Source: Phyto melanocephala
Lineage: Eukaryota; Arthropoda; Insecta; Diptera; Rhinophoridae
NCBI GenBank assembly: GCA_941918925.1
Contig: OW799233.1
Span: forward strand, 148,616,223-148,680,222
Direction of reading: 5' to 3'
Length of the DNA stretch: 64,000 nucleotides
Within the stretch, counting starts at the first letter, position 1; each line of letters starts with the position of its first letter. Under the pieces are notes generated by a model, which saw only the letters and a list, made by a program, of their open reading frames with translations, had not been told where the DNA came from and searched no databases. Shown here one piece after another: positions 8,291 to 61,270 of the stretch. The translations under genes were made by a program, and so were the position numbers.

Positions 8291-8439
8291 AGCGTTTCTT
8301 AAATCGCTCACTTAGCGCGCATGATTTTTATATACGACTAGCCAAACCCGGCGCGCGTTGCTACGCCCCTTAATGAATCGAAATGCATTCTAAATTTTAA
8401 TTGAAAATCAAGTGCAAAAACCTAAAAATTATTATTTTT

Positions 8440-9450
8440 TTCTTGTGGGCGTTGCATTGCCCACTTTTCTAATCACGAAGTTGTAAAGTCATAACAGCTC
8501 AATATGTGTGCAAAGTTTCAGAAGAATCGGACCAGTGCAAGTTCCTAAAAATTATAATTGCTTTTATGGGCGTAGCCCTGCCCACTTTTCTAATCACGAA
8601 ATTGTAAAGTCATAACAGCTCTATCTGTGCGCAAAGTTTCAGAATAATCGGTCAAGTGCAAGTACCTCAAAATGGTACCTTTTTTTATGGGCGTGGCACT
8701 GCCCACTTTTCTAATCACGAAATTGTAAAGTCATGACAGCTCGATATGTGTGCAAGATTTCAGAAAAATCGGTCTGGTGCAAGTACCTCAAAATTATAAC
8801 CTTTTTTTATGGGCGTGGCCCTGCCCACTTTTCTAATCACGAAATTATATGGTTATGACAGCTTAGTATGTGTGCAAAGTTTCAAAAAAATCGGTCCAGG
8901 GCAAGTACCTAAAAATTAAAACTTTTTTAGGGGCGTGGCCCCGCCCACTTTTCCTATCACAAAATTATTTAGTCATGATAGCTCGATATGTGTGCAAAGT
9001 TTCAGAAAAATCGGTCTAGTGCAAGAACCTCAAAATTATAACTTTTTTTTTATGGGCGTGGCCCTGCCCACTTTTTTAATCACAAAACTATAAAGTCATG
9101 ACAGCTCAATATGTGTGCAAAGTTTCAGAAAAATCGGTTCAGTGCAAGTAGCTAAAACTGATAACTAATTTTTAATGGGCGTGGCCCCGCCCACTTTTTT
9201 AACCACGAAATTATAAAGTCATCACAGCTTAATATGTGTGCAAAGTTTCAGAAAAATCGGTTTAGTGCAAGTACCTCAATATTAAAACTTTTTTAGGGGC
9301 GTGGCCCCGCCCACTTTTCTTATCACAAAATTATTTAGTCATGACAGCTCGATATGTGTGCAAAGTTTCAGAAAAATCCGTCAAGTGCAAGGAGCTAAAA
9401 CTGATAACTAATTTTTATGGGCGTGGCCCCGCCCACTTTTTTTTACCCAT
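8440..9450 (-). repeat. Nine-copy ~121-bp tandem array inside the Helitron
   Basis: The landmark 'cccacttt' starts at 8460, 8581, 8702, 8824, 8944, 9067, 9190, 9310 and 9432, so the period is 120-123 bp. Each monomer has a GC-rich near-palindrome (gggcgtggcc...gcccac) and a segment reading 'tgtgcaaagtttcagaaaaa'. Monomers differ by point changes, so the array is not recent. Confidence 0.95.
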
Positions 9451-9526
9451 AAACACTCCCTGGTATGTGTCCAACAACTTGCCAAAGTTTGAGTCCGATC
9501 GGTTTTACAGTTTCGGAGTCTATAGC

Positions 9527-14927: not shown

Positions 14928-17554
14928 TTACTTAGTCTTTTTACAGCGCTCTTTATGTACCATATCATTTTTTGCGATTCTCTGAATCAGACAGTCCACC
15001 CACTGAAAAGCATTTTCACGGGAAAGTTCTGAATTATAGGAACTCCCCAAATACCAGCTATGCCTACGTGTCTCGTAACCTACATTAGCGCTACCTTGTG
15101 TACAGAGGAACATCAATTTAGATTCAGAAAACATTTAAGTACCAGTTAGTATTCCATACGTTTGCCATAGGTACGTACGTAATAAAAGATTGGTTATTAA
15201 GTGCTACCAGACTCTTCTTTCTCTCACATAGCTTGATTAAATCATGTACTTAGCAAAGCAATCAACTCTGGTATTCGGACCCATAAACCTACTTTTCCTT
15301 TAATAAGGGAACGATCAGTAATAAATTTCGACATGTTGTTTAATTACAAATACTCGGACATTTCTTGTTCGACTTAGAAAGTGATTATTTATAAATCGAT
15401 CAGTGTACTTAAAGGTTAAAGAAGATCTATAAACATAAATATATTTTTTGCGCTACAAATGCCAGCTTATATGCATGATATTCAACATAAATTTATATAC
15501 ATATAGTGGTGTTAGGTCATACATGTTAAGAATTTATTTTATTTTAATTTCTTAACAAGCTCCCCACCAAAATCATAAATATTTTTGTAAATATGCTAAT
15601 TTTTTCAATCCCAACTTCTTGAACAATAAATACTTGTAATAGCTCTTTCTATTAAATTGTAGAAGCTAGCTTATTTAAAATGTATCTTTCTTCAAAGAAT
15701 CAAAAAACCAAAAAACCAATAAAATAAAGGGCTTTCCCATTAACAAACAGAAGTCTTTAATCATTTAAACTTATATTACAAGTGCTAAAAATGAAGAAGA
15801 TAAAGTACATTGGCTCCATTTTGAGTAGCATTTAAATAGAAATCACACCTTATTGATATTTATTAACCTTTTGCAATGAAAATATATTCATGAGTTTATG
15901 GCAGTAGCGTTGTTCTTTATAATTTTTTTTATTACAATTTTTGTTGTTGCTTTTTTCCAATTTCTTTACCGTCTGTCTATTTACAGCATTATGTGCGAAA
16001 ATCAAAATTATTCCAAGGAGAAGATTTCAAACGAAGGCATTAAATTTGCATCATTTAACGGCTAGAATACTTCAGATAGTCAGCCGTTTTGTGTAGCCGT
16101 AGAAACAGGCTGAGACAAGACGTATACGTATTTAATACACATTGCTTTTTCCCATAAAAACACAGACTTGTACACGCACACATTATTAAATAATAAATGT
16201 TCCTTCAACGATAAAACCACCAAAGCAAATCTAATGCTACATACAACATATGCATAGAGAGAAAAATAATATAAAAAAAATTCGACAGGATAACGAAAAT
16301 ACAAAAAAAAAGTAACAAACGAACAATATAAAACATGTTGAGGTTGTAGCTAAAACTTGACATCGTCAAACTCAAACTTCAACAATTTTAGAGAAAAATC
16401 TCTACATGTTTGATTTGAATTTTTTGCTGTTCGTTTTCCTGCTGCATTTTTTGTATTGTATTACGGAAGCGGAATTATTCGAAAAGTGTTGATGAGCGAA
16501 CGAGTGAGCGGCATTTAATAAAGGTCTGCATACAAGGTATACACTAATAAGGCACATATGTGCACCAACACGCATTTGTATGAATGGATAAGGAATTTCT
16601 AATATTAAAAACAGCTGTTTTTACATCATCGTCATAATCACCAACTTTCTCATCGTTTTTATCGTTGTTGTATAGAATCCGGTATTCAATTGTGTATGCA
16701 GTAAGCAGAACTGTTCGTCGTTTCTGAAAAACGCCGGTTTTTTACGAGAGACTTTTTTTGTTGTTGTTTCTGTGTAGGAATACCAATACGTGTATATATG
16801 TATGTATGTATGAGTATATGAGTGTTTACAAATTGTATACGTTTTAATACCCACATTCAAACCCAGTATGAGTAGCTGCTAATGTACATTTATTTTATCC
16901 AAAGGGGACAAGTTTTTCTCTTTTACCCACATACATCAACACACTCACATCCACTGACAAATAAAAAAAACGATACAAACGAAGAATCAGAATAGAAACC
17001 AGGAAAATACATAAAATAACACCAACTCATTTTGTCTTTTCAATCTAACGGTATCAGTTGAAAAAAGTGTGGAAATTGTATTTTTATTCAAAACAATGCC
17101 TTTACTGCAACAGGTATGTAAATAATAAAAAAAAAACTCACACACACATTTAACAAAAACAATTTGAAAACTCTTAACCACACTTTACACAGTAAATAAA
17201 ATAATAAAAGTACAACTAGGAACCCTTTTTTATTATTATTAAATACAATTGCTATATCCAGAGTAGCAATTTTATGTATGTGTGTATGGTATGTAGGTGT
17301 GTAGGTATGTGAGTATGTAGGTATGTATGGATGTATGTCAAGAAAAGCTGAGAATTTTAAACTGCACGCATGAATTGGGAAAATATTGTACTTTAACTGA
17401 CATTATTTTACAAATTTCATTTACAAAAATTGTTCACATTGAACCAGAAGGCGGGTGCAATTAAAAAATAATAAACGACTTAAAACAAATTCTCTTTAGA
17501 GTTAACAACTATTAATTTTTCTTTTTATTTAATTGTCGAACTATTTAATGTATA
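14928..17554. other. AT-rich noncoding DNA with TATG microsatellites
   Basis: I found no gene or classified transposon. (TATG)n lies at about 16797-16815, and a longer imperfect TATG/TAGG run lies at about 17275-17338. Short open frames here are uninformative. Confidence 0.45.
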
Positions 17555-17940
17555 AAGACTATATTATTTTTTTTATTCAGGCTCAAGTTCATTTTATATT
17601 AAATTTCTCATATATTTTCCTTTTTATATAGATATGAAGAAATCAATTTTTATTTTTGGTAATGAAAGAATATACTGGAAAAGTTATTATCCCGACACCA
17701 GCCGAGTGGAATGCATTTTCGAAACCAGCTACGGTTTCATCATCAGCACTCTTTTGATAACAACTATAGTTATACCGTTTAAATAAAAAGAACATTAATT
17801 TACTAGTCGCTAATTGGGAAAAACCTTCTGTACCTTTGTGTACATTTGCCTGGGTAATAAAATAAAATTCTGAAATAGTAATCAAAAAATAAGAGGTTGG
17901 GCTTCTAAAAGGCTGGTAGCGATTTGTAAGCAAATTTTAC
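17555..17940 (-). mobile_element. Hammerhead-bearing retroelement-like copy (Penelope-like?)
   Basis: On the minus strand the unit contains a hammerhead ribozyme (17683-17764) followed by sequence ending near 'gaacttgagcctgaataaa', which matches the end of the copies at 57.7-58.5 kb. Upstream of the ribozyme (17765-17860) it shares 'ttaaa...aaagaacatt'-type sequence with 57950-57990 and 39290-39330, so the family extends beyond the ribozyme on both sides. I see no protein domain. The placement of a ribozyme in a terminal repeat resembles Penelope-like elements, but this assignment is an inference. Boundaries are approximate. Confidence 0.6.
17683..17764 (-). ncRNA. Type I hammerhead ribozyme, intact core
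   Basis: Read on the minus strand, the order is as follows. The outer stem I arm is GUUGUUAUC, then an AAAA internal loop, then the inner stem I arm GAGUG. The core CUGAUGA comes next, then one extra U. Stem II is GAAACC, loop GUAGCU, GGUUUC. The core GAA follows, then a short stem III of AAU, loop GC, AUU. The cleavage-site base is C. The inner arm CACUC comes next, then a 12-nt loop, then the outer arm GAUAAUAAC, which pairs 9 bp with one G-U. All conserved hammerhead positions are present. Cleavage is predicted after the C at 17709. Related ribozymes occur in Penelope-like retroelements. Confidence 0.85.
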
Positions 17941-27571: not shown

Positions 27572-28183
27572 TATACCCGCCACCAAAAAAATGGTGGGGG
27601 TATATTCATTTTGTCATTCCGTTTGTAACACATCGAAATATCCATTTTAGACCCCATAAAGTGTATATATTCTGAATCAGGGTTTGATTTGATGACGATC
27701 TAGCTATGTCCGTCCGTCTGTCCGTCTGTTGAAAGCACGATAGAGGTCGCACCAAAAAAGCTAGGGGGCTCAAATTTTGCCAGAATCTTTCTTATAGACA
27801 AGGTTTGTTTGGTATTGAAAATGGGCTAAATCGGAATATTAGGAAGCGAGTTATAGCTCGAAAAGCAACAGTAGGTCGAAAAAATCGTGTCCTTCAAACA
27901 TCGAATAAAATGGAATTGTGTCCAAACGCATTAACGTAGACTCATGAAACTTCGAATATATATTTCCTGAGTAAAAACAATATTTTTCCCAGAAAATGAT
28001 CTAAATCTATGCATTAGGAGAGGAGTTATTGATCAAAATGTACGAAAATTTATACCGCACAGTGTATTTTTTGGTATATTTAAAAACAAAAACGTCATAA
28101 AAGCAACAAAATTGGATGTACGACCCTGAAATTTTGCACACATGGCTTTTTGGTCAAATGCTTTGTTCTAACGGAAAATCAAT

Positions 28184-29240
28184 GTGCCACGCCCACTTTA
28201 ACGCCCACCTCCCATATAACGTTTTACCCAAAATTCATATAATTTTTCTATTAATAAAGATTTTGGAATATAAAAGGACTATATTGAAACACCTAAGTTG
28301 TACTCATTACCGAGAACAACTTTGACACGCCTACTATAACGCCCACTTTTCACGTTATCTACCGTTAATAAAATTTAAAAGCTCATAAAACCGCCAAAAT
28401 TAGAGGTATGAAGATAAAACTTGCTACGTATATCCCCCTAGGCAATGTCATTACTGTGCCAAAAAATTAAGGTGCCACGCTCACTTTTACGCCCACCTCC
28501 CATATAACGTTTTACCTAAAATTCATATAATTTCTCTATTAATAAAGATTTTGGAATAATAAAAGACTATATTGAAACACCTAAATTAAACTCATTAGCG
28601 AGAACAACTTTGACACGCCTACTATAACGCCCACTTTTCACGTTATCTACCGTTAATAAAATTTAAAAGCTCAAAAAACCGCCAAAATTTTAGGTATGAT
28701 GATAAAACTTGCTACGTATATCCCTCTAGGCAATGTCATTACTGTGCCAAAAAATTAAGGTGCCACGCTCACTTTTACGCCCACCTCCCATATAACGTTT
28801 TACCTAAAATTCATATAATTTCTCTATTTATAAAGATTTTGGAATAATAAAAGACTATACTGAAACATCTAAGTAGTACTCATTAGCAAAAACAACTTTG
28901 ACACGCCTACTTTAACGCCCACTTTTCACGATATCTACCGTTAATGAAATTTAAAAGCTCATAAAACCGACAAAATTAGAGGTATGATAATAAAATTTGC
29001 TTCGTATATCCTTCTAATCAATGTAATCGTTGTGCCAAAAAGTTTAAGTGACACGCTCACTTTACCGCCTACTTCCCATATAACGGTTTATCTTAAATTC
29101 ATGTAATTTCTCTATTGACAATGTTTTTGGGAAAATAAAGGACTATATTAAAATATCTAAGTTGTATTTATTAGCAAAAGCTTTATTGACACTCCTACTT
29201 TAACGCTCACTTTTACTAAAAGACTACATTTACGAAAACA
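28184..29240 (+). repeat. 288-bp tandem array, about four copies
   Basis: The landmark 'gtgccacgc' (last copy 'gtgacacgc') starts at 28184, 28472, 28760 and 29049, so the period is 288-289 bp. Each unit holds 'cccatataacg' and 'acgcctac..taacgcccact' blocks. The last copy is more diverged. Reverse-complement relatives lie at 36811-37786 and 58736-59395. Confidence 0.92.
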
Positions 29241-29265
29241 TTTTACTATCATATCGAAGTTATTA

Positions 29266-39062: not shown

Positions 39063-39238
39063 AATTGGCTGAGTTTTCTTAAATAATAAACTTTATGATT
39101 TTTAATGCATACGGCAATTAATATTTTGACTTAAATATCTTTAAGATATAATTATAAATTGATTTTTTTTGAACTTTTCATTTAAATTTATTGTAAATCA
39201 TTTATGCTGGCCTAAGCTTGTTTTTTCTCAATTATTAT

Positions 39239-39340
39239 ACCAGCTACGATTTCATCATCTGCATCGGTATACTCATATTAGATTTTAAAACGAACATTTA
39301 TGTTACAATTTAATGAAATTAAATAATGGGAAGCATAATA
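39239..39340 (-). mobile_element. Decayed hammerhead-family fragment
   Basis: On the minus strand it carries 'cagatgatgaaatcgtagct' where intact copies have the CUGAUGA core and stem II, so the second core base is changed. Sequence 3' of stem II is lost. The upstream part (39290-39330) matches the flank of the copy at 17683. The ribozyme is not functional. Confidence 0.6.
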
Positions 39341-53927: not shown

Positions 53928-54571
53928 TCTACATATATGTATATATAAAAATGAATCCCTTTTTCCCTTGGTCACGGCATCACGCGTGAATGGCTGGACC
54001 GATTTTACTAATTCTTTTTTTGTTGTATTTGTTATTATTAGGAGAAGGTGCTTATGTCAGTTTCGTGATTATAAAAATGGGCAATGACACGCCCATAAAA
54101 AATTAGTTATCATTTTTAGCTACTTGCGATAGATCGATTTTTCTGAGACTTTGCACACATATTAGGCTGTCATGACTACATAACTTCGTGGTTATAAAAG
54201 TGGGCAGTGCCACGCCCATAAAAAATGAGTTATAATTTTTAGCTACTTGCACTAGATTGATTTTTCTGAAACTTTGCACACATATTGAACTCCGATGACT
54301 ATACAATTTTGTGGTTGTAAAAGTGGGCAGTGCCACGCCCATAAGAAATGAGTGATTATTTTTAGCAACTTGCACTGGACCGATTTTTCTGAAACTTTGC
54401 ACACATATTGAGCTGTCATGACTATATAATTTCGTGAATAGAAAAGTGGGCGGTGCCTTGCCCATAAAAACATGTTATAATTTTTAGCTTCTTGCACTTG
54501 ATATTCAATTAAAATTCAGAATGCATTTTTATTCATTAAGTGGCGTAGCAACGCGCGCCGGGATTGGCTAG
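53928..54571 (+). mobile_element. Non-autonomous Helitron, complete
   Basis: It begins TCTACATATATGTATATATA after an A and ends GGGATTGGCTAG before a T, matching the A-T insertion rule. The 5' region has 'ccttggtcacggcatcacgc' with a TCACGCGTGA palindrome. The 3' end has the same GCGT-loop-ACGC palindrome as the element at 8338. The body has four monomers (landmark 'cccat' at about 54091, 54214, 54337 and 54458; period 121-123) in the same orientation relative to the ends as in the first element. It is noncoding. Confidence 0.9.
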
Positions 54572-55519: not shown

Positions 55520-57735
55520 TAATATAAAATGTTAAATCTTAAAAAAGGTAAAATTTTTTGAATCTTTTAAGTTTAAGAAAATTTCTGTAAGCAGAGAATA
55601 ACAATTTTACGAAGATACCATAAAAAGAAGGTATTTGAAATTTTTTAGAGATTGCACAATTTTTTAAAAGTTTAATATATTTTTAGAAATTAAATCAGAT
55701 ATTAATACAGAATTTTGCAAAAAAAAAACACTCACTTCATACATACTTCTTATTTATATGTCTAAAGGTTAAATTAGAGGTTAGAAACTAAAACAATTTT
55801 GTGCAATTATCTTGTTATAAATAAAGTTTTTACTTAAATTAAGTAAAACTGCTAATTTATCGCATCCGAACTTTGTGATTTTCGTTTTTAATATTAACGC
55901 TATTAATATCAGTCGTTTCGTTCATAAACATGGAATTTGTTAACGATTTTAATACAGCACCAAAAGTATCCTTTAACTAACTACAATGTTAAATAAAAAT
56001 TTTGAAGAAAAATAAACAAAAACCGCCACAGTAGTTCTCGAAAAATCTGCGTACATACGAACAGCGACATTTGAAAATAGAAAAATAGAAATAGTTGTTC
56101 AGCTCCACTGTGCTTAAAGAAAAACTATTATGAGTAAAAGAGAGGGCGTAGTTGGGAAAAGCTTCAAATGGAGAACATACACATGTATGTTAAAAATATA
56201 AACGTTACATGCCCAGGCATATAAAACTTCAGCAACAGTCTGAACAGTTTTATAAAGAAGAAGAACACATTTGCACAAACTTTAAACATAAAAAGTTGGA
56301 ATCGTACAGTTTGTTGTTACCCATACTTTGGATTTAACTTCATATGCTTAAGTAAAACTACACACTGCTTTCTCAAGGGATGTGAAAAACAACAGGCAGT
56401 AGACATTTGTGTTTCAACGGCAACATTTCCGAGTTTCGTTCGTTTGTACTTTTTTCCAGTTTTACTTTACTCACAGTTAACATGCATTTCCGTTAAATGA
56501 GTGAGTACAAAGACGGACTATTAGATGGGCAGACAGACATACGAACTTTCTGAACAACAGACAAATATTCTTTACAATACCAGCACTGAATAAATGTAAA
56601 AGATAAAATATAAAAAAAATACACAAAAATTCAGACCTATTACATTATCTTTAAAGCTAGCTAAAAGAAGAGGAGAAAAAAGTAATGAAATCTACATACA
56701 CACCAATTGTATTCATAACAAACGTCATTCAATGAATGCACTTTTTAAACAAATACTTACTAACAAAGCAACAACAGCGTTAACAAACAACTGCCTACAC
56801 ACTTTTATTTACAAATATTTATTTGTTGTTGGCTACGTTAGTTATAAACTTGTATTTTTCATTCAGGCATGTCGATAATGCAGCCGTAGCTGTGACTGCC
56901 ACAACAACAAGCTTTATTGCAGTCATCGCCTTCTCAACAACATTGCCATTTACTGTAGAACTGATAACAACAAACTCGAAAGCGTGTAGATGCTATTTTT
57001 AGGCTTGAGAAAAACTTTTTCTATGCCTTTTCAATGTTTCGCTTTTATTATTTTTATTTCATTTCTATTTAACAGTGAATAATAAAAATATGTTGCACCC
57101 ACACGCACGCATTGTAATTTTGGCATCCCTAAGAGCATGAACGATTTTCATACGGCAAACATTGTATGTACATAACTATTGCATACTACATTACCAATCT
57201 GCACATTTCACAAAACTACTAACCAACTTCCTTTTTCTCTTGAATCTTATCTTCGTCACACTTACGAAATACGTTTAGTCAGTAGAAGCCCATTTTAGTA
57301 CCAGAAATACAAAATTAAAATAAAAAATTATGCATCTTAGCATTCTATTTTAAAAACAATTAGTGCAGTGTTAAAAATGTAATTTAATAATAGACAATTG
57401 ACCAGCTCAAATATATATGTAAATACAAAGTTAATATGTAGTTGTAACCAATTAACTATTTGTAAATATAACGCTTGAATTTTCTAAAATTTGTTTTGGG
57501 CAGTTGTAATAGCCTCATACTGTCTTATTTAATTTCACGTTTATCAAAATTGAACACTAATATGGTTTAAGCATTTCTTTTAACACCTGTGACAATCTTA
57601 CAAATATTATTTCAATAACAAAACGATTAATAAAACTACTTCATTATATTGCATTATATTGCAATGCCCAGCTGAGTTTTTTTTTAATTTTTTAACACAT
57701 TACCTCAAAAAGTATTTTAAATTATCTGTAAAAAT
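55520..57735. other. Noncoding DNA, repeat-poor
   Basis: About 2.2 kb has no recognised transposon, apart from an isolated TTGGCATCCCTA at 57121-57132 that equals the hAT-type end at 3751. Texture near 56030-57130 is less AT-extreme and CAA-rich, and may be single-copy intron or intergenic DNA. I could not support an exon. Confidence 0.4.
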
Positions 57736-57846
57736 TATTTAAATTTGTTAATCAGGCTTGAGTTCATATTAATATTCTTTATTTTTACAAAGAATTTGTT
57801 TTAATTGTGATAAATGAAAGAATAAATCTTGAAAAATTATATTTTT

Positions 57847-57917
57847 ACCGACACTAGCCGAGTGGAATGCATTTTCGAAAACAGCTACGATTTCATCATC
57901 AGCACTCTCTGATCGGT
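57847..57917 (-). ncRNA. Type I hammerhead ribozyme, second copy
   Basis: Minus strand: the outer stem I arm is ACCGA, then loop UCAGA, the inner arm GAGUG and the core CUGAUGA. Stem II is GAAAUC with loop GUAGCU and GUUUUC, with one U-U mismatch. The core GAA follows, then stem III AAU-GC-AUU, the cleavage-site C, the inner arm CACUC, an 8-nt loop and the outer arm UCGGU. The outer helix uses different bases from the copy at 17683 but still pairs. The mismatch in stem II may reduce activity. Confidence 0.8.
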
Positions 57918-58328
57918 GGTTACATGTTGGTTGTAAATATCATCTATTTAACTCACGGGACTTATGTTAATTGAATTCGGTAACTAATTTTTAGTTTTTC
58001 CTATTTCATATATTTTTACCACAATGAGTTAGATTGAAATTTTAACCAAACAGCAACCCTTTTTTACTTTTTGTTTGTTATTATCTTTCATTTATCACTA
58101 TTTTTGTCCTGCTCTAGCCACCAGTTAGGTAGCGATAAGAACAGATAATTGTTTTTAACAATCAATGTTTATAATCATTTGTTTTATTTTCTGTGAGGTC
58201 AGTATACAACGAAATGTTGACTGACTAACAGTGGATGAATGATTTTTTTGCACCGTGCCCTGTGTTTATATAAATTGAATTTTTATTTGTCGAACTTTTC
58301 TGTTTAAACTATTATTTAAATAGTTTAG

Positions 58329-58371
58329 CTGATGATGAAATCGTAGCTGTTTTCGAAAATGCATTCCACTC
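58329..58371 (+). ncRNA. Truncated hammerhead, stem I missing
   Basis: The core CUGAUGA, stem II, GAA, stem III, the cleavage-site C and the CACUC arm are present. The sequence just 5' of the core (GUUUAG) cannot pair with CACUC. Homology to the minus copy starts within a base or two of the core, so stem I is gone and the motif should not cleave. Confidence 0.7.
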
Positions 58372-58649
58372 GGCTAGTGTCGGTAAAAATATAATTTTTC
58401 AAGATTTATTCTTTCATTTATCACAATTAAAACAAATTCTTTGTAAAAATAAAGAATATTAATATGAACTCAAGCCTGATTAACAAATTTAAATAATAGT
58501 TTAAACAGAAAAGTTCAACAAATAAAAATTCAATTTATCTGTAAAAATATTTCTAAATGTAAAGTTAAAAAAAAAAACCTTGAAGAAAAAGTTTTTATGA
58601 AAAAGAAATGTTACAACATAAACATCTGCTTTCGAAACATAACCACCTT

Positions 58650-58735: not shown

Positions 58736-59395
58736 GCACAAAATGTATTATTTTGTTATTAACATTAATCGCTATAGAATAATCTCTTTAAACTAAAATA
58801 TGTATCACTTTCTTTGTATAACTAGTAAAATGTTTTCGTAAATTTAGTATGAATGAAAGTAGGCGTGTCAATAAAGTTTCTGCTAATAAATGAAACTGAG
58901 ATATTTCAATATAGTCCTTTGTTCTTCCAAAAACTTTGTCCATAGAGATATTCTATGAAATTAAGATAAACCGTTATATGGGAGGTAGGTGTTAAAGTGG
59001 GCGTGTCACCTAAATTTTCTGCCATTACAATGACATTGACTAGAAGGATGTGGCAAATTTCATCATCATACTTCTAATTTTGTCGGTTTTATGAGCTTTT
59101 AAATTTCATTAACAGTAGATAACATGAAAAGTGGGCGTTAAAGAAGGCGTGTCGAAATAGCTTCTTCCAATAAGCTCCACTCAGATATTTCAATATAGAG
59201 TCCTTTATTCTTCCAAAATCTTTATTCATAGAGAAATGATATGAATTTGAGATAAAACGTTATATAGGAGGTAGGCGTAAAAGTAGGCATGTCAAATTTA
59301 TTTTCCGTTAGAACAAATTATTTGACCTAAAATCAATGTTTGAAAATTTTCAGAATCATACATCTAATTTTGTCAGTATATTTAAAAACTTCTTT
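58736..59395 (-). mobile_element. Family-N body fragment, antisense
   Basis: It contains about two and a third 288-bp-type units in antisense ('gggcgtgtcacctaaattt', 'gttatatgggaggtaggtgt') and the 'attaatcgctatagaataat' segment near the 3' end of the family. It lacks both terminal hairpins. It serves as the empty-site control for the mariner inside the element at 27572. Confidence 0.75.
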
Positions 59396-60991: not shown

Positions 60992-60999
60992 TTTACAAT

Positions 61000-61130
61000 A
61001 TAAATAAAATTTTTATTTATCGAACTTTTCGATTTAAATTATTATATATAAATTTTAATTCAGGCTTGAGTTCTGGCTTGTGAATGTTAACATGAACTCA
61101 AGCCTGAATTAATATTTAAGTATTATATAA
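61000..61130. repeat. Foldback of hammerhead-family 3' ends
   Basis: 'aattcaggcttgagtt' and 'gaactcaagcctgaatt' face each other across about 25 bp. Upstream, 61013-61050 matches the 'tatttgtcgaacttttc' 3' terminal sequence seen at 58285. Two 3' ends of the family thus lie head to head without their ribozymes. Confidence 0.65.
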
Positions 61131-61270
61131 ACAATATATTTTAAAAAACAATCACCTAAATAACAACACGACTACCTTATTAATATACATTGATCTCGTT
61201 AAAATTAAGTCAACTCATGTTGAGAATTTAACAAATCATTTTTTTTCTATCTCTTAAAAACCGACATTTT
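61131..61270. other. AT-rich noncoding DNA
   Basis: This is a short spacer in which nothing is recognised. Confidence 0.35.

Follow-up and report, generated by a model that had tools for sequence, protein, structure and literature searches.

Introduction

Insertions of Penelope-like elements comprise tandem and head-to-head copies, with duplications of 8-10 bp in the cases described, and one of the two inverted copies may carry an optional tail (PMC3846280). For a Penelope element from a lizard, the account in PMC11167929 has both target strands cleaved and extended, with AT-rich DNA preferred and with reverse transcription beginning at two adjacent sites whose interval corresponds to a 30-40-bp tail; the start site was alike on top and bottom strands. 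The lizard element has a hammerhead at the start of its ORF, and an active hammerhead is not required for its insertion in vitro (PMC11167929). Hammerheads of Penelope-like elements are also described in PMC6155905 and PMC7761336.

In animals, retrozymes are short repeats in tandem that contain type I hammerheads and are expressed as circles, and insects are among the hosts of retrozyme-like repeats (PMC7229834). Animal repeats with type I hammerheads are given there as 150-450 bp long, and the discussion of the same paper gives circles of 150 to over 1000 nt. As to what mobilizes retrozymes, Penelope elements are put forward as a strong candidate, as a proposal rather than a demonstration (PMC7229834, PMC7761336). 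A departure from the canonical hammerhead core is described for the plus strand of the viroid CChMVd, which has an additional A between A9 and G10.1; changing this A to U increased trans-cleavage 3-4-fold (PMC3705267).

Here we describe a hammerhead repeat family found through one copy in a 64-kb stretch of DNA (the window) and followed through the genome. No description of this family was found in the titles or abstracts of open-access papers.

Results

Anatomy of the hammerhead in copy A

The core, stem II, a 3-bp stem III, C17 and stem I of a hammerhead motif were all found on the minus strand at 17751-17704 (Table 1). The CUGAUGA...GAA core is combined with an NUH cleavage site and with a stem I that opens toward the flanks, which is the type I arrangement. 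The preliminary description had every core element in order; the elements are present on this strand, but an extra U at 17739 had been missed.

An outer stem I of 9 bp had also been claimed. The 3′ strand of this 9-10-bp stem is 17691-17682, and its 5′ strand is mostly AGTTGTT, which falls within the direct repeat AACAACTAT present on both sides of copy A. Because copy A is truncated and most of that 5′ strand is target-site-duplication DNA, we consider the pairing to be fortuitous. The native 5′ partner of outer stem I, AUCCCGAU, has been truncated away in this copy, and the 10-bp stem was rejected as a native helix since intact copies pair differently.

Table 1. Positions of the hammerhead elements and of the repeat copies in the window
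Feature	Position	Strand	Remark
Inner stem I, 5′ strand GAGUG	17751-17747	minus	
CUGAUGA core	17746-17740	minus	
Extra unpaired U, between A9 and stem II	17739	minus	
Stem II GAAACC/GGUUUC, loop GUAGCU	17738-17733/17726-17721	minus	
GAA core	17720-17718	minus	
Stem III AAUGCAUU, self-complementary, 3 bp and 2-nt closing loop	17717-17710	minus	
Predicted cleavage-site C17	17709	minus	from motif anatomy; 5′-OH product would start at 17708
Inner stem I, 3′ strand CACUC	17708-17704	minus	
Hammerhead catalytic part, inner stem I through inner stem I	17704..17751	minus	
Native outer stem I, 3′ strand GUCGGGAU	17689..17696	minus	starts 5 nt nearer than the 3′ strand of the fortuitous stem
Copy A, 5′-truncated solo insertion, subfamily A, 246 bp	17513..17758	minus	ends at the tailed 3′ end
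Left copy of the direct repeat AACAACTAT (target-site duplication)	17504..17512		by eye from flanks
Direct repeat AACAACTAT, right copy	17759..17767		by eye; fortuitous stem takes its 5′ strand mostly from here
Approximate tail of copy A, unit about 157-197	17512..17552	minus	between the two 3′ end points of the family
Copies B and C, one head-to-head insertion, subfamily B	57734..58538		
Copy B hammerhead, GAGUG to CACUC	57860..57907	minus	stem II G-to-U mismatch
Copy C hammerhead, lacking the stem I 5′ strand	58328..58381	plus	
Copy E, small head-to-head insertion, diverged (83-84%), lacking a hammerhead	60998..61133		tail only on left
Copy D, relic of older subfamily O, ribozyme 3′ half missing	39147..39263	minus	

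Copies within the window

The suggestion that the hammerhead sits in a dispersed repeat was borne out, with further copies both in the window and in the genome. Copy A contains unit positions 510-559, followed by 1 to about 197. Copies B and C belong together as the halves of a single insertion (minus half 57734-58321, plus half 58328-58538), which has a tail only on the right and, as read by eye, a 14-nt direct repeat (57722-57735/58535-58548) that shares a few bases with the ends of the element. Copy C has no stem I 5′ strand because the head-to-head junction falls there. The stem II mismatch is shared by copies B and C and is missing from the common forms of the family; the same G-to-U change occurs in one copy at locus L099. 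A reading of copies B and C as a foldback element or MITE was dropped after they had been mapped onto genomic units.

Other repeats are present in the window. Tandem repeats of about 120-123 bp at 8408-9454 and 54058-54477 lie on opposite strands and are 79-85% alike, and the latter has a 123-aa stop-free frame built of 41-residue repeats. A 288-bp tandem repeat (four copies, 28081-29244) has inverted relatives, 75-86% alike, 30 kb off at 58856-59373. A 61-nt element occurs as six dispersed copies (29923, 43181, 44890, 46196, 46790 and 48527), most with TTCGGCACGGCCGAA-like palindromes, and presumably resembles a fly repeat family.

The repeat family and its tandem arrays

When the genome of 740 Mb was searched for copies of the family, most matches lay in tandem arrays. 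The copy A query gave 47 matches from the best 40 of 1,414 candidates and the copy B query 41 matches from the best 40 of 700; another genome search scored the best 40 of 165. Because the best matches come first, the arrays sampled are the youngest. Units of subfamily A were spaced by 559 bp in four of the five loci examined and by 562-564 bp in the fifth, and those of subfamily B by 574-576 bp, with a few interrupted spacings also found among the arrays. Tandem Repeats Finder, with periods limited to 500, gave nothing at L051. One unit from each subfamily had a G+C content of 0.29, and the longest ATG frame in a doubled unit was 45 codons in A and 62 codons in B.

Differences between units of subfamily A were 0.6 within the same half of an array, 0.7 between opposite halves and 2.8 between loci, and the corresponding values for subfamily B were 2.4, 2.2 and 4.5. 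In subfamily B, L102 was exceptional, with units within one array differing by 2-9. Gene conversion could also explain the similarity of units within arrays. L050 (C4:55548000-55556000) and L051 (C4:55561500-55566500) are neighbouring multi-unit arrays with the same complex centre, because of which they are probably duplicates; within this centre lie two additional partial units in inverted orientation, as though copying had switched template twice.

An additional U in the core

In a scan that allowed 0-3 additional letters after A9, all 102 copies with an exact core (32 non-overlapping fetched loci) had exactly one T between A9 and stem II; these copies are young and not independent of one another. 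A scan by the downstream half of the motif found 105 copies, among them 101 with the same spelling, two with CTGATAA followed by T and two lacking the upstream half. Among the aligned relics of subfamily O, which is older, 14 of 16 also have the extra T.

Conservation and pairing among subfamilies

Subfamilies A and B are identical at 58 of 60 nt in the ribozyme and at 50.5% of the remaining alignment. The best non-overlapping 60-nt window reaches 80%, and the ribozyme is thus the most conserved window. Its two differences are a C/U change in stem II, which turns C-G into U-G, and one loop base. Outside this stretch, outer stem I of intact copies pairs CCCGAU with GUCGGG in A and ACCGAU with GUCGGU in B, a replacement of C-G by A-U with pairing retained. 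Inner stem I and stem III are the same in A and B (a few copies break a pair) and therefore provide no evidence from pairing-preserving changes.

In subfamily O, the well-kept relic L119 has the outer helix CCGATA/TATCGG, and relic L122 shows a further two-sided change, ATGATA/TATCGT. At the position of covariation between A and B, the O consensus would have A opposite A and so no pair, and several O relics break stem pairs. Since outer stem I of subfamily B was misplaced in the MAFFT alignment, pairs were counted relative to anchors; because this tally presupposes the extra T, it cannot serve as evidence for the extra U, and its copy counts include overlapping loci and are not usable as copy numbers.

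Covariance models, chance and folding

The preliminary description had looked to a covariance-model match to confirm the motif and to its absence to dismiss it. Across the whole window no Rfam family scored at or above its gathering threshold, and no Rfam hammerhead family was reported at E≤10 for short stretches around copy A, copy B and one intact genomic copy. Taken literally, this is the outcome that was to count against the motif; we do not regard it as a refutation because of the comparative evidence above and because one viroid hammerhead is known to work with an extra nucleotide at this site. RF00163 was reported at one of the ten scanned viral loci with a canonical core pattern (10 among 80 listed). 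This model is therefore in the library, but either it is insensitive or the other nine viral loci are not hammerheads. Small nucleolar RNA matches from cmscan were dismissed, all being far under their gathering scores.

With a strict descriptor (at most one extra nucleotide, and no fewer than 5, 5 and 3 bp in stems I, II and III), no match was obtained in 416 million strand-bases simulated under a first-order Markov null, and a relaxed descriptor gave two. The window itself has one strict match and two relaxed matches, the latter two being homologous. Searches of prokaryote and viral collections with short DNA patterns gave either no matches or matches that we took as chance.

Folded freely, copy A (z -3.2) pairs GAGUGC with GCAUUC in place of inner stem I. 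Inner stem I and stem II do form in the folds of one intact copy each of A and B, whereas the fold of the decayed relic L122 lacks this arrangement. Unconstrained folds of circularized A and B units form inner and outer stem I as well as stem II, with pair probabilities for inner stem I of 0.86-0.88 (A) and 0.57-0.58 (B) and for stem II of at least 0.98; stem III was absent from these predicted circular folds. A type I hammerhead, as read in the preliminary description, is thus supported by sequence conservation, by pairing-preserving changes between A and B and by the predicted circular folds, once the extra U is admitted and outer stem I is redrawn.

Structure of the insertions

Thirty-five insertions were mapped to units, 32 at genomic loci taken from the best matches and three in the window. 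Twenty-nine of them were head-to-head and six had a single orientation. A tail was present on exactly one side in 23 of the 29 head-to-head insertions, as for the 30-40-bp Penelope tail, with a length of 28-54 nt by alignment ends (median 39) and with end classes that were defined after the ends had been seen. The outer ends of these 23 insertions lie at unit positions 143-159 on one side and 196-201 on the other in subfamily A, and at 130-140 and 167-180 in subfamily B. Six head-to-head insertions depart from the one-tail rule (L051, L102, L055, L062, L104 and L111), and two of these, L051 and L102, lie across the edge of the fetched stretch. The tail is one-sided although no difference in start site between target strands is described for the lizard Penelope enzyme (PMC11167929), and the lizard result alone therefore does not explain it.

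Head-to-head junctions were found at many different unit positions. At L094 one half-array measures 4,621 bp, and the template was therefore longer than one unit.

Direct repeats of at least 8 nt (9-15 nt) flanked 21 of the 29 tested loci, and two loci had none. The longest direct repeat at insertion ends had a mean of 10.4 nt versus 2.6 in random pairings, 3.5% of which had a direct repeat of at least 8 nt under the same search freedom; several of the repeats are AT-rich runs, which could mislead. Head-to-head copies within one insertion that has a target-site duplication are a hallmark shared with Penelope-like elements. The identity of the family, which the preliminary description had left open, can now be given as Penelope-type, judged by insertion structure.

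Search for an autonomous partner

Genome-wide scoring of 126 candidates with the Pfam GIY-YIG profile (PF01541, E≤0.001), which may miss Penelope endonucleases, found no autonomous copy. The one match, at C1:50685447-50688686 (L112), is presumably the host gene SLX1. No polymerase gene was visible by eye inside four interrupted arrays. The units hold no long ORF that could code for a telomerase-like reverse transcriptase, with or without a GIY-YIG endonuclease, and the family is therefore at most a non-autonomous relative of Penelope-like elements.

In subfamily O (L118, L119, L122, L123, L245 and L251), the ribozyme lies in an open frame with an ATG start, as seen by eye (MSIPIKSADDEIVAGFENAFHSANIGIIF, then a stop). 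This frame may be a fossil Penelope ORF start that overlapped its hammerhead.

Discussion

We think it likely that a type I hammerhead with an extra core U is carried here by a mobile repeat that is young and non-coding, its units measuring 559-576 bp, and that this repeat depends on a Penelope-like reverse-transcription cycle. The best reading is that of a retrozyme-like RNA that is non-autonomous and owes its insertion to Penelope-type machinery, and the comparison of copies makes it very likely that the hammerhead was functional in the recent past of the family. We infer that self-cleavage, circles and a Penelope enzyme belong to its cycle, which might run as follows. The repeat unit would be transcribed and its multimers cut by the hammerhead into units, which could be ligated to circles. 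A Penelope-like reverse transcriptase would copy the unit RNA at a staggered AT-rich target where both target strands prime, one from each of two start sites separated by about 40 nt; either primed strand could copy several units. The two cDNAs would then join head to head and leave a duplication, mostly of 9-15 nt.

A more specific form of this cycle, to which we give slightly less than an even chance, is that a single self-cleaved RNA circle is reverse-transcribed by a Penelope-type enzyme from both strands of one chromosomal break, from the proximal site on one strand and from the tail site on the other, each for up to several rounds. If true, it would yield head-to-head arrays whose halves share one private sequence, and it would constitute a physical link between retrozymes and the machinery of Penelope elements that had earlier only been proposed.

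A real hammerhead might take no part in insertion, with arrays derived from linear, multimeric transcripts that read through older arrays, or from duplication at the DNA level, and with circles and self-cleavage uninvolved. This would suit the complex centre common to L050 and L051, one of which is probably a segmental duplicate, the in vitro insertion of a Penelope element without an active hammerhead (PMC11167929), and the units of L102 that differ by 2-9; gene conversion may account for array similarity. However, separate direct repeats and varied unit numbers at many loci indicate separate insertions, and the ribozyme, as the most conserved window between A and B, therefore matters somewhere in the cycle. 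We judge this account rather unlikely. Head-to-head arrays also resemble the inverted terminal repeats of a foldback or MITE-type DNA transposon, in whose long inverted repeats a hammerhead-like stretch would have arisen by chance; but the two outer ends differ by the tail in 23 of 29 insertions, the junctions fall at many unit positions, the direct repeats vary in length, and single-orientation copies exist, among them copy A with its flanking direct repeat, so that a transposon of this kind is highly improbable.

We attach similarly little weight to a coincidental resemblance in which the conserved block (SADDEIVAGFENAFHSA...) is the remnant of a protein-coding start. Its frame is open in A, B and O, with an ATG start in O by eye, and the lizard Penelope hammerhead overlaps an ORF start (PMC11167929). 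Against this, each pair of subfamilies shows 0 synonymous and 2-3 non-synonymous differences over 18 codons, with no third-position change; upstream of the block, A has two extra nucleotides and B one relative to O, as seen by eye, which shifts the frame; and the longest ATG frame is only 45 codons in A and 62 in B. A coding remnant was rejected as the sole explanation, the codon changes not looking protein-driven. The Rfam miss, the extra core nucleotide and the alternative free fold of copy A would fit a chance resemblance with no catalytic function, which is nevertheless most improbable given the absence of strict matches in 416 Mb of simulated sequence, the conservation, the pairing-preserving changes and the tandem non-coding repeats, a known setting for animal hammerheads as described in PMC7229834.

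The preferred reading, a retrozyme-like RNA inserted by Penelope-type machinery, bears on how non-coding RNAs that carry hammerheads re-enter animal genomes. Since a non-coding hammerhead unit here bears the insertion signature of Penelope and its arrays are young and near-identical, this question becomes testable, and start sites, circle junction and template unit should be readable from genomic and RNA data. The family also provides an example of an animal hammerhead whose core has an extra U and which goes unreported by Rfam release 15.

Comparison with known systems

The plus-strand hammerhead of CChMVd, as described in PMC3705267, resembles the present one in having one extra nucleotide at A9/G10.1, an A there and a U here. 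CChMVd is a plant viroid whereas our repeat is genomic, and the likeness concerns the position of the extra nucleotide.

With the metazoan non-LTR retrozymes described in PMC7229834 the family has in common non-coding tandem repeats with one type I hammerhead each, a low G+C content and duplications longer than 4 bp. Its units of 559-576 bp lie outside the range of about 150-450 bp given there, and, unlike the retrozymes of that description, it has head-to-head arrays, a one-sided tail and an extra core U.

Penelope-like elements encode a reverse transcriptase, with or without an endonuclease, whereas our units have no ORF for either. Stem III has 3 bp in our repeat, whereas Penelope hammerheads, as described, usually have no helix III, and direct repeats reach 15 nt here versus 8-10 bp in the elements of PMC3846280. 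In the layout of insertions the two agree: tandem and head-to-head inverted copies, a tail on one copy and target duplications are common to both, as are a hammerhead upstream of the reverse-transcription start sites and AT-rich targets, in so far as these are described for Penelope-like elements in PMC3846280 and PMC11167929.
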